Positions 1,490-19,662 of a stretch of 27,115 nucleotides of DNA are shown piece after piece. The stretch spans positions 1 through 27,115 of the IMG/VR virus record IMGVR_UViG_3300037840_000177; one strand, 5' to 3'. Made by a program: the position numbers and the translations under genes. Source of the stretch: a virus. Each line of letters opens with the position of its first letter. The first letter of the stretch is position 1. The notes beneath the pieces are model-generated. The model was not told the origin of the DNA. It searched no databases and worked only from the letters and a program-made list of their open reading frames with translations.

Positions 1490-2737
1490 TCATATTGGCA
1501 ACGCTACGAGCATCGAATATTCATCTACGAGTGTAGCTCCCCAGATGCAGTCGGTCACATAACCACGCTGATTTTGACCAAATAACGAACCGTAGTAACT
1601 TCTTAAGGAAGCGCCGGAATCTGGGTCAGTGGCAATACCAGTTGGATATGGAACTTCTTCTGGCAATCTTGGCATTGCTAAGAACATTGGGTCACCAGAG
1701 TAAATAAGACCGCAACGGTGACTTGGCAATACAGTTGCCTGCATTCCAGCAACAATTGGTGTATTAATGTTTTGATCTTGTCCTGAATTAACTTGTAATG
1801 GAGGGTAGATACTAACCGTAACTTGATTACCACCTGTTGAAGCTGCTTGCGCTGTAGCACGGAACTGCACAGGGTTTTGAGATATTTTGTGACCAATGAA
1901 GGTTAAATATCTTAGATTTGTGAAACCGCTCACACCATCACTAAACTGGAATTTATCATAAGCTTGAACAGAGTTTGGATCGTTCGCAGCATTAGTTCCT
2001 GAGAAAGTGATTGCAGTCACAGCACCATTCGCATCAAGCGTCGTAGATACAACGGTTAATGTTGAAGCCTCGTTACCTTCCGTTCCAGAAATGTGAGTCT
2101 TTAACAGGTTAGATTGATACCATTCACATTTGCTGAACTCACCAATTTCCCATGACATAGCCTCACGATTACCTCTATCAAGCGTAAATTGGTTTAAACC
2201 AGAGTTTACGATTAATGGGAAGGTTAGGTCTGATAGGAAACCTTTAGTATCCATTACAGCCGCACCGTAGTTACGGAAGAAGGCTAAAGCGTTTGCTAAT
2301 TGCAAATAACTGTTAATAGGATTAACGCCATCACCATAAAAACGATAAGTATTAGTTTCAGCAAGTTGTGCAATATTGGATTCAATTTGAGTTCCAATTT
2401 CTGATACAGCTGATTGGCCAAATCTTTCCATGTAATCACGAACGTTGAAAATAAACTGTTGAGCAGTAAATTCATACGCTGTGCTAACTTGTTGGTTTAC
2501 CGTCAAAGTTTGAACACGCTGAACTGCAGGTTGGAATGTAACAACCAGGGAGTTCGTTGTGGTAAATCTCGGAGGCAAATCGAAGCTCACTGTGTCCCCT
2601 AGATTCTTAGGGACTGAGTCATTAAACCCAATAAATTTCTTATTGGTAGTGCTTATAAAGCAGAACGAGTTTAAAAGAAGCGCGAGGTTACTCTCGTTAT
2701 AGGTAATAACCTGTTGCAAGATGTTATTAGTTGACAT
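1490..2737 (-). CDS. Major capsid (coat) protein, P22-like
   Basis: A 415-residue protein starting at ATG with GGAGA upstream, placed directly after the scaffold gene. N-terminal residues LNSFCFISTTNKKF and NLGDTVSFDLPPRFTT, the middle part FNVRDYMERFGQSAVSEIGTQIE and the tail GASLRSYYGSLFGQNQRGYVTDCIWGA (in two parts) resemble the P22 coat family, which has an HK97 fold with an inserted domain. Length is close to the 430 residues of P22 gp5. Gene order portal, scaffold, coat agrees. It would form the icosahedral shell around the scaffold core. Classification is by recognition of the pattern and order rather than by alignment. Confidence 0.85.
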   Translation of the reverse strand: MSTNNILQQVITYNESNLALLLNSFCFISTTNKKFIGFNDSVPKNLGDTVSFDLPPRFTTTNSLVVTFQPAVQRVQTLTVNQQVSTAYEFTAQQFIFNVRDYMERFGQSAVSEIGTQIESNIAQLAETNTYRFYGDGVNPINSYLQLANALAFFRNYGAAVMDTKGFLSDLTFPLIVNSGLNQFTLDRGNREAMSWEIGEFSKCEWYQSNLLKTHISGTEGNEASTLTVVSTTLDANGAVTAITFSGTNAANDPNSVQAYDKFQFSDGVSGFTNLRYLTFIGHKISQNPVQFRATAQAASTGGNQVTVSIYPPLQVNSGQDQNINTPIVAGMQATVLPSHRCGLIYSGDPMFLAMPRLPEEVPYPTGIATDPDSGASLRSYYGSLFGQNQRGYVTDCIWGATLVDEYSMLVALPI

Positions 2738-12966: not shown

Positions 12967-13158
12967 TTAAATTAGAATTAGAGCAGCTGCTTCCATAATT
13001 TCTTCTTCGTCTCCCACAAACTCTAGAAATACTGAAAGGCATTTAAGGTCGTCTTCTAGCTCTTTAATCGAAACCATACAATCAACGTCAGCGCCAGTTG
13101 CGCCACAGATAGCCTTTGCTTCATCTACAGTTATATATCTCACTTTTTCATTCTCCAT
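12967..13158 (-). CDS. Unknown small acidic protein
   Basis: 63 residues starting MENEKVRYITVDEAKAICGA, acidic, with an C-terminal hydrophobic stretch (IMEAAALILI). It starts two bases after the stop of the preceding gene. The ITVDEAKAICGATGADVDCM part suggests a compact helical fold. No family recognised. Confidence 0.45.
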   Translation of the reverse strand: MENEKVRYITVDEAKAICGATGADVDCMVSIKELEDDLKCLSVFLEFVGDEEEIMEAAALILI

Positions 13159-18003: not shown

Positions 18004-18171
18004 ATGAAAATATCAAAGGGAATTGCCATCTTGTTATGCGCCTTATGCTGCACTGTAACAATTCTTTCTGGATGCTCAACTATAGGCATTGAGAAGGAAT
18101 TATATTTCAGAGAAGATATACTTTGTCCTGGTACAGGGCAGATGTATCAAATCCGAATTTACAACAAATAG
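18004..18171 (+). CDS. Small lipoprotein (55 residues)
   Basis: MKISKGIAILLCALCCTVTI is a signal sequence and LSGC (21-24) a good lipobox, so Cys24 should be lipidated and the remaining 32 residues (STIGIEKELYFREDILCPGT...) exported. CGGGG is the ribosome site. It is the last gene before the 21-bp repeats. Small phage lipoproteins can be spanin partners or block superinfection; no proline-rich Rz1-like stretch is present, so I do not assign it. Confidence 0.55.
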   Translation: MKISKGIAILLCALCCTVTILSGCSTIGIEKELYFREDILCPGTGQMYQIRIYNK

Positions 18172-18175
18172 GCAC

Positions 18176-18238
18176 AATTATCGATTTGGGGTGCTGATTT
18201 ATCGGTTTAGGGTGTTGATTTATCGATTTGGGGTATAG
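18176..18238 (+). repeat. Three tandem 21-bp repeats
   Basis: Units at 18176-18196, 18197-18217 and 18218-18238 share the core TTATCGRTTTRGGGTG with few changes. 21 bp is two helical turns, so a protein would bind all copies on one face. A shorter match, ATTTATCGAT, occurs at 20006-20015. Repeats end about 20 bases before an extended -10 box. They could be activator or iteron-like sites. Confidence 0.75.
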
Positions 18239-18255
18239 GTGTATGATCAAGATTG

Positions 18256-18287: not shown

Positions 18288-18303
18288 TAAAGAGGATACA
18301 CTT

Positions 18304-18567
18304 TTGATATTTTTAAGCGATACTTTATTAAATGCAATTTCTGGTGGCGCGTATATAACTGCGGGCTACCAGGAATCCTCTGGCGTGAGCTATCAATCAA
18401 GCGAGACGTACACTATTACGTTTCAATACGATGGCTCTATGCCCCCTGAGATTCAAGCTAAGATAGATGCAGGCGCATCATGGACAGAGTTGGCACCTGT
18501 TCTCACGCTTTACTCCATGGCGATTAACGATTTGAAAACTCGTTATCCTGAGAGATTTTCAGGATGA
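18304..18567 (+). CDS. Double-glycine-leader peptide precursor 1 (microcin/bacteriocin-like)
   Basis: 87 residues from TTG at 18304, with AGAGGA upstream. Residues 1-15 are MIFLSDTLLNAISGG, which align gaplessly with the colicin V leader at L4, L9, I/V12, S13, G14 and G15. Cleavage after GG would release a 72-residue, Cys-free peptide rich in Ser, Thr and Tyr (AYITAGYQESSGVSYQSSET...) with a C-terminal helix (WTELAPVLTLYSMAINDLKT). Its stop overlaps the start of the next precursor (ATGA). The leader match is seen; antibacterial action is inferred. The TTG start is needed to give the 15-residue leader. Confidence 0.6.
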   Translation: MIFLSDTLLNAISGGAYITAGYQESSGVSYQSSETYTITFQYDGSMPPEIQAKIDAGASWTELAPVLTLYSMAINDLKTRYPERFSG

Positions 18568-18869
18568 GGGTGTTGAACAAATTCGAAAGCGAGCGTGTGG
18601 CAGGTGCCGTTTATGGTATGTGTACCATAGGAGATCCGATAAATTTTTCACCCGTTGAACATAGTTACGTAGATTATACCTTTCGAGATCCAGGATTAAC
18701 CTTTGCAGAAATAATTAATGCTGGTTTCTGGGGTTGTACGGGAGCCTTGGCTACCGGAAGAGGTATACAAGGTTGTGTGATAGGAGGCGGAATTGCTGCA
18801 GGCGCAAAAACGATGTCCTTCTTCATAAATGATGCCTATGATCTCTATTGGAAGAGCAAAAAACGATGA
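18564..18869 (+). CDS. Double-glycine-leader peptide precursor 2 (GA-type)
   Basis: 101 residues. MRVLNKFESERVAGA is a 15-residue leader with L4, E8, V12, G14 and A15, a GA variant of the microcin leader. The mature part (86 residues) has three cysteines (20, 58, 71) and a Gly/Ala-rich hydrophobic stretch at about 52-81 (FWGCTGALATGRGIQGCVIG) with GxxxG spacing like pore-forming class II bacteriocins, then a basic end YWKSKKR. It is start-stop coupled to both neighbours. A second peptide of a two-peptide bacteriocin is a fair reading. An ordinary small membrane protein is the alternative. Confidence 0.6.
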   Translation: MRVLNKFESERVAGAVYGMCTIGDPINFSPVEHSYVDYTFRDPGLTFAEIINAGFWGCTGALATGRGIQGCVIGGGIAAGAKTMSFFINDAYDLYWKSKKR

Positions 18870-19138
18870 AATCAGATTTTGCTATGAAAGATTTAGACAA
18901 AGATTTAATAGCAAAAGTGGAACGAGTTCGAATAATAAGCGGAAAGGCTTTATATCTTAGGCTTATATATGTCGTTGGTATGATTTTCATTACTTGGTAC
19001 TGCGTGAGGCATAACCTATATAGCAAGTATGGGTATACGATACTGAGTATGACTTTAACAGCTAACTTAATATGGGTTATAGGCGATATAAGAAACACCG
19101 CCATTAGAACGATAGTAGATATTATAAAAAACGAATAA
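18866..19138 (+). CDS. Two-span membrane protein, candidate immunity protein
   Basis: 90 residues from ATG at 18866, which overlaps the preceding stop (ATGA). A charged N-terminus is followed by membrane segments at about 29-46 (LYLRLIYVVGMIFITWYC) and 55-73 (YGYTILSMTLTANLIWVIG) and a short C-terminal helix. Small 2-4 span proteins encoded directly after precursors are usual self-immunity proteins of microcins. The assignment rests on context and topology; there is no family match that I recognise. Confidence 0.5.
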   Translation: MKSDFAMKDLDKDLIAKVERVRIISGKALYLRLIYVVGMIFITWYCVRHNLYSKYGYTILSMTLTANLIWVIGDIRNTAIRTIVDIIKNE

Positions 19139-19158: not shown

Positions 19159-19419
19159 ATGAGCGACGATTTAATTAAAGCATTCAAAGAGGCGCCCGAC
19201 GATGCGCTTTTAGACAGAATTACGACCGCTGCTGGCCTTGGGGTTAAGGTTTCCCTATTATCTACCAAGGCGATTAGAGGTGGCGGTCCCCCTTTTCAGA
19301 AGATAGGATTCAAGACTATGTATAAAAAGTCTGACGCAGTTGAATGGCTAAAAGCTTATAAACATAACTGCCGAAAGGTTAACCCAATGCACTATTGGAG
19401 AGTTGGTCCCGCTTGTTAA
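19159..19419 (+). CDS. Excisionase/AlpA-like helix-turn-helix protein 1
   Basis: 86 residues. DRITTAAGLGVKVSLLSTKA, GGGPPFQKIG (41-50) and MYKKSDAVEWLKAY match the winged-helix pattern of MerR/excisionase-like proteins, in which GPPF-K-G and Y-KSD-WL mark the wing and last helix. The usual 'W..G' turn is modified. The C-terminus (NCRKVNPMHYWRVGPAC) is extra. It lies just downstream of the bacteriocin-like genes and could regulate them. Weak ribosome site. Confidence 0.6.
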   Translation: MSDDLIKAFKEAPDDALLDRITTAAGLGVKVSLLSTKAIRGGGPPFQKIGFKTMYKKSDAVEWLKAYKHNCRKVNPMHYWRVGPAC

Positions 19420-19422
19420 TAT

Positions 19423-19662
19423 ATGAAAAAAATATCCGATTTAAGAAAAGAGTTTTGTAATGCTCATCCAGATGAATTGCTAGATAGGCCAACAACGGCT
19501 GCAGGTATTGGTTATTCTATGGGATGGATGGAAATGAAAGCCACAATTGGGGGTGGGCCACCTTTCTATAAGCGAGGGAGGCATGTATTATACAGAAAAT
19601 CTGATACCATGAAATGGTTTGAAAAGAACTCTAAGTTAGTCCATTCAACACGTGAGATTTGA
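19423..19662 (+). CDS. Excisionase/AlpA-like helix-turn-helix protein 2 (paralog)
   Basis: 79 residues, a diverged tandem copy of the gene before it: ELLDRPTTAAGIG, TIGGGPPFYKRGR and LYRKSDTMKWFEK align with DALLDRITTAAGLG, IRGGGPPFQKIGF and MYKKSDAVEWLKA. No clear ribosome site, so coupling is likely. Both copies retain the GGGPPF-K motif, suggesting that both bind DNA, perhaps different sites. Last plus-strand gene before the repeat-rich gap. Confidence 0.6.
   Translation: MKKISDLRKEFCNAHPDELLDRPTTAAGIGYSMGWMEMKATIGGGPPFYKRGRHVLYRKSDTMKWFEKNSKLVHSTREI

Follow-up and report, generated by a model that had tools for sequence, protein, structure and literature searches.

Leaders of the double-glycine type are cut at this motif by C39 ABC exporters (PMC6363468), and in microcins the cleavage site may be GG or GA (PMC9746304). 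Links between such peptides and phages have been described: NapC of Neisseria gonorrhoeae is 68.9% identical to an inovirus protein (PMC11798529), and bacteriocin gene clusters on prophages are known, at least as summarised in PMC7616364 (citing Dragos 2021). Here we describe a phage lineage that carries several leader-bearing precursor genes and in which no such exporter was found.

The analysed stretch of DNA, 27,115 nucleotides in length (hereafter “the window”), is a whole IMG/VR record and probably represents a fragment of a longer genome, because related records reach 37–39 kb. It belongs to a P22-like phage, the portal and coat proteins sharing 22–25% identity with their counterparts in P22-like and Thalassomonas/Vibrio/Shewanella phages. 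Just downstream of RecE- and RecT-like genes lies a cassette of three genes on the plus strand, i.e. P0001 (18304–18567, TTG start, 87 aa), P0002 (18564–18869, 101 aa), and P0003 (18866–19138, 90 aa). The first two encode precursors, and the third, as the first-pass annotation had stated, encodes a membrane protein with two hydrophobic spans, a candidate immunity protein. The coordinates, gene order, and ATGA coupling given there agree with our reading of the ORFs, with ATGA at both junctions. The description as a trio was nevertheless incomplete: the pair and P0003 stand as described, but a third precursor is encoded elsewhere (see below), and a conserved gene for a small lipoprotein (18004–18171, plus strand, 55 aa, lipobox-like LSGC) is located directly upstream. 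This gene is kept in most relatives and is possibly part of the module.

Several features of the flanking regions were noted. Three tandem copies of a unit of about 21 bases (ATTTATCGATTTGGGGTGCTG-like, 18177–18239) separate the lipoprotein gene from P0001; they are not obvious in relatives. By eye, a common TG(A/G)TA(T/A)-like promoter-type motif is visible 5′ of P0001 in the window and in L064, L065, L066, L067, L074, and L077, and a short GGGGAC...GTCCCC hairpin precedes the P0001 start in some relatives. Directly 3′ of P0003, two tandem paralogous small proteins (19159–19419 and 19423–19662) match phrog_2528 and have weak matches to HTH DNA-binding/excisionase families.

The distribution of the cassette was determined among relatives, starting from 48 related viral contigs recovered with the portal protein. 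A P0002 search of 31 full related records yielded four clear homologs (G002, G006, G008, and G009), each near recT; these four records are near-complete, and G002 has a 115-base terminal repeat, as in a complete genome. L077 and L074 came to light in profile scans and L133 in a RecE scan, so that the P0001–P0002 pair is present in eight records including the window. A two-span P0003 homolog follows the pair in seven aligned records; its place in L133 is taken by an ORF of 60 aa that has hydrophobic stretches. Single-sequence searches with P0002 of viral and genome contigs retrieved no homolog, nor was one found among isolated phages and plasmids; likewise, P0001 had no homolog in the phage collection. 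One match to P0001 (L002) was short and lay inside a large unrelated phage ORF, and it was rejected.

The P0001 leader (MIFLSDTLLNAISGG, 18304–18348) and the P0002 leader (MRVLNKFESERVAGA, 18564–18608) both comprise 15 residues ending in GG or GA, as had been claimed from the window alone. Homologs lacking such a leader at their N-termini had been named as grounds for rejecting the claim. Instead, all 16 precursors of the eight records, i.e. the P0001 and P0002 proteins of the window and their homologs in seven other phage records, have leaders of exactly 15 residues that end in G-G/A/S, with a consensus of roughly M-x-x-[LI]-x7-[IV]-[SA]-G-[GAS]. This length is retained even where the whole-protein identity to the window proteins drops to about 30%. 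The start codons vary between ATG, TTG (the window and L077), and GTG (L133), always yielding a 15-residue leader, and Shine-Dalgarno sites are found ahead of most precursor starts. Use of the TTG codon for P0001, on which the original reading depended, is backed by the Shine-Dalgarno sequence AAGAGGA (18290–18296, plus strand), which can be read directly upstream, and by the TTG start with a 15-residue leader in L077. The two precursor genes are adjacent in most relatives; in G006 and G009 an extra ORF lies between them, and both leaders are kept. The leader-bearing precursors are real and conserved across relatives, and the case is stronger than first described.

For an estimate of chance occurrence, we built a matrix on the leaders of six characterised class II microcins (V, L, N, E492, M, and H47) and scored the 658 starts in the window that are followed by at least 30 open codons. 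The first three ranks were taken by a start at 13143 on the minus strand, by P0001 (18304), and by P0002 (18564), respectively, in line with the proposed similarity to class II microcin leaders. In first-order Markov simulations, 0.05 starts per window reached the second score and 0.33 reached the third, so that the P0002 leader alone is not significant; in sister-clade phages, 4 of 8001 starts reached the third score. What excludes chance is mainly that the leaders of both genes are kept in all eight records, and not any single score. The cassette genes are under purifying selection with dN/dS values of 0.04–0.09, similar to RecT. For the comparison of G008 with L074, the values were 0.046 (P0001), 0.037 (P0002), and 0.092 (P0003), versus 0.065 for RecT.

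The top-ranking start in the window belongs to the third precursor (12967–13143, minus strand), a locus found by a leader scan of the relatives. The gene has a GTG start with the Shine-Dalgarno site GGAG nine bases upstream, and it encodes the leader VRYITVDEAKAICGA (13143–13099) followed by an acidic mature part of 43 aa and 4.72 kDa; the corresponding leader in G002 is MDDLNIEYMDDVYGG. The short gene lies on the opposite strand between a small gene and a nuclease-like gene, presumably VRR-Nuc-like, and it has the same place in relatives. This family is unrelated to P0001 and P0002 and shares their leader type, and its mature part is short, acidic, and variable. The window and the genomes G002, G006, G008, and G009 each contain exactly three high-scoring precursors, whereas the sister-clade records contain no such gene. 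The mature sequences of the three families are unrelated, the leader being all that they have in common. Just upstream of P0001 in G002 (L064, about 1920–1996, minus strand), there is a further GG-leader-like stretch, FIALSKSRLETISGG, followed by AGYERDMAGIL; it has no standard start codon and is possibly a relic of a duplicated precursor.

The mature parts differ markedly in character. Mature P0001 (72 aa, 7.97 kDa, pI 4.3) is hydrophilic, and its model (pLDDT 64) combines a beta hairpin with two helices. This acidic, soluble-looking domain weakens the label of a two-peptide bacteriocin that the first-pass annotation had used. A fold search of the PDB with P0001 gave no match; in BFVD it resembles one uncharacterised phage protein, A0A6J5L5N8 (E 0.01, probability 1.00, 32% identity). 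Mature P0002 (86 aa, 9.28 kDa) is neutral, with 24% Gly+Ala and a hydrophilic N-terminus. The three cysteines noted before are C20, C58, and C71, and the latter two, but not C20, are invariant in the family. The P0002 model, which at a pLDDT of 52 is indicative only, shows a leader helix, a loose stretch, and a Gly-rich helical hairpin. P0003 has the size, position, and membrane character published for microcin immunity candidates (PMC9746304). Searches of Pfam, NCBIfam, and PHROGs returned no significant family match for any of the three proteins, and no likeness of the mature parts to known bacteriocins was found. P0002 also matched a holin family and a yeast killer toxin weakly, which we attribute to chance. 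P0003 was also considered as a leader mimic: from its second Met (MKDLDKDLIAKVERV, 18884–18928) its hydrophobic residues are spaced as in a GG leader, but the GG is missing, and its leader score is weakly unusual, being reached by 1.9% of background proteins. This candidate was rejected.

As to the host, a portal profile run on genome contigs matched only two metagenome bins, with labels in conflict (Mucilaginibacter and Myxococcales), and a PAS kinase on the Mucilaginibacter-labelled contig has a Legionella plasmid protein as its nearest relative. The sister-clade phages L122 (787–1014 and 2811–4405, minus strand), L090, and L095 carry csrA, and L122 also has receiver and PAS-kinase genes, the kinase being nearest to a Legionella plasmid protein. 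Together with csrA, these Legionella-like signalling genes of sister phages give no more than a hint of a Legionellales host. G006 encodes a tRNA-Leu (gag) and G020 a tRNA-Tyr (gta), at L089:12200–12283 and L103:13308–13389 (minus strand), which might help to trace the host. Two adjacent genes of L085 (9354–9860 and 9857–10276, minus strand) weakly match sigma-70 region 4 and the RNA polymerase alpha C-terminal domain, below curated cut-offs. A search of 15 records revealed no tyrosine integrase.

The absence of an exporter from the window had been pointed out at the outset, and it extends to the relatives: a search for the C39 peptidase (PF03412), in which positive controls were detected, found it in none of 20 phage records. 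A host exporter would be required, and we infer export by a host C39-peptidase ABC exporter (PCAT, CvaB type) because no phage record searched encodes one. In the mechanism that we propose, the phage makes three short precursors with class II microcin-type double-glycine leaders, two of them from the cassette. During infection, the host PCAT would recognise the precursors, cleave after GG or GA, and export the products. Mature P0002, with its hydrophilic N-terminus, Gly-rich hairpin, and two invariant cysteines, would insert into membranes like colicin V-type microcins, P0001 might be a co-exported soluble partner, and P0003, from the next gene, would protect the producing cell. The parts of this proposal differ in strength. 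Leader-directed export of the phage peptides from the infected cell is very likely, and for this the phages probably borrow a secretion machine of the host. Export by the host PCAT combined with an action outside the cytoplasm is still favoured, though less firmly. Membrane-active antagonism by P0002 is a tentative assignment, as is the role of P0003 as immunity protein, and the peptides may have antibacterial activity. Several points count against this best reading: P0001 is unlike a membrane-active bacteriocin, the P0002 model has low confidence, the mature parts do not resemble known bacteriocins, and a phage without a recognised integrase has no obvious gain from a classical bacteriocin.

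Other explanations would account for parts of these results. An accidental resemblance of the N-termini to GG leaders in cytoplasmic proteins is conceivable for a single leader, given the simulated frequency at the P0002 score. It becomes extremely improbable when one considers that the leader has exactly 15 residues in all 16 homologs of the two families, that a third family carries it as well, and that non-ATG starts lie where they yield this length; moreover, no likeness to virion proteins was found. A function centred on the leaders, which would occupy the host exporter as decoys and block host peptide secretion, would fit the observation that three unrelated mature sequences have only the leader in common and that the third mature peptide is short, acidic, and variable; alternatively, the peptides could be phage-to-phage or phage-to-host signals. 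We regard decoys or signals as improbable, since purifying selection on mature P0001 and P0002 is strong and both have invariant motifs, indicating that the mature parts themselves matter, and no receptor gene was recognised.

The exported peptides could also turn on the producing cell and aid its lysis, by analogy with the GG-leader Nap peptides, which mediate autolysis in N. gonorrhoeae and include the inovirus-like NapC (PMC11798529). Among the proteins scanned, most of which came from G009, none was recognised as a lysis protein, and the model would allow P0002 to be a membrane-active hairpin. However, unrecognised lysis genes are common in metagenomic phages, the sister clade without the cassette must lyse anyway, the cassette is located with recombination genes and not with late genes, and the phage peptides are acidic or neutral whereas Naps are cationic, which makes self-lysis a poor candidate. 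Somewhat better placed, although still unlikely, is an envelope or superinfection-exclusion module, in which the envelope of the infected cell itself is the target of the lipoprotein, the exported peptides, and P0003, which would block a receptor or the DNA entry of a second phage and would not kill other bacteria. Such a module would be compatible with the conserved lipoprotein gene, with the predicted envelope direction of the lipoprotein, the two leader-bearing peptides, and the two-span protein, and with the position beside recET instead of the late genes; the lack of a detected integrase also makes a lysogenic bacteriocin role less natural. Against it, microcin-type export normally leads out of the cell and not to the envelope, and no likeness to known exclusion proteins was found. 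The most far-reaching reading is that of a P22-like clade without a recognised integrase that has its own secreted-peptide programme, with three unrelated peptides sharing only a microcin-type leader, export by a host C39 ABC exporter during infection, and an action outside the infected cell (antagonism, exclusion, or signalling). We consider the chances of this full reading to be about evenly balanced.

Within the limits of the literature searched, no report was found of exporter-less multi-precursor GG-leader sets conserved in tailed phages. Phages that keep only leader-tagged peptides and leave processing and export to the host would make the infected cell a secretor of phage peptides. The question of whether phages act on their surroundings before lysis via host type I secretion thereby becomes testable, and leader-tagged phage peptides would be a source of microcin-like molecules. 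Since these proteins have no significant match in Pfam, PHROGs, or NCBIfam, we suggest scanning phage genomes with leader models.

The comparison with known systems reveals both differences and common features. Prophage-borne bacteriocin clusters, as far as the cited summary describes them, also place bacteriocin-like genes on phage DNA; they carry whole biosynthetic sets, whereas here only precursors and a putative immunity gene are present, clade-wide and with no integrase found. Nap peptides (PMC11798529) likewise carry GG leaders and are encoded on a mobile element next to a membrane protein. They are cationic, have their own C39 peptidase and a FapF-like outer-membrane channel, and act in autolysis, whereas the phage peptides are acidic or neutral and the phage records have no linked C39 peptidase. 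In common with class IIb two-peptide bacteriocins (lactococcin G type), the cassette has two consecutive, ATGA-overlapping double-glycine precursor genes in one operon, followed by a membrane protein, and P0002 is Gly-rich. In contrast to that class, it is phage-carried, and mature P0001, acidic, hydrophilic, and partly beta in the model, departs from the expectation of two membrane-active partners of the amphiphilic or Gly-zipper type. Class II microcins (colicin V/MccV, MccL, MccN, MccH47, MccM, and MccE492) have a C39 peptidase-containing ABC transporter in the same element, whereas the carrier here is a phage without a recognised integrase, known from sequence alone, that has neither PCAT nor another C39 peptidase, two or three precursors per genome, and dissimilar mature parts. 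We do not claim membership in this class because no exporter lies beside the genes and antibacterial activity is only inferred. The features shared with class II microcins are the 15-residue leader ending in GG or GA with an equal residue pattern, core peptides below 10 kDa for all three precursors, the Gly-rich, Cys-containing P0002, and the small membrane protein encoded next to it.
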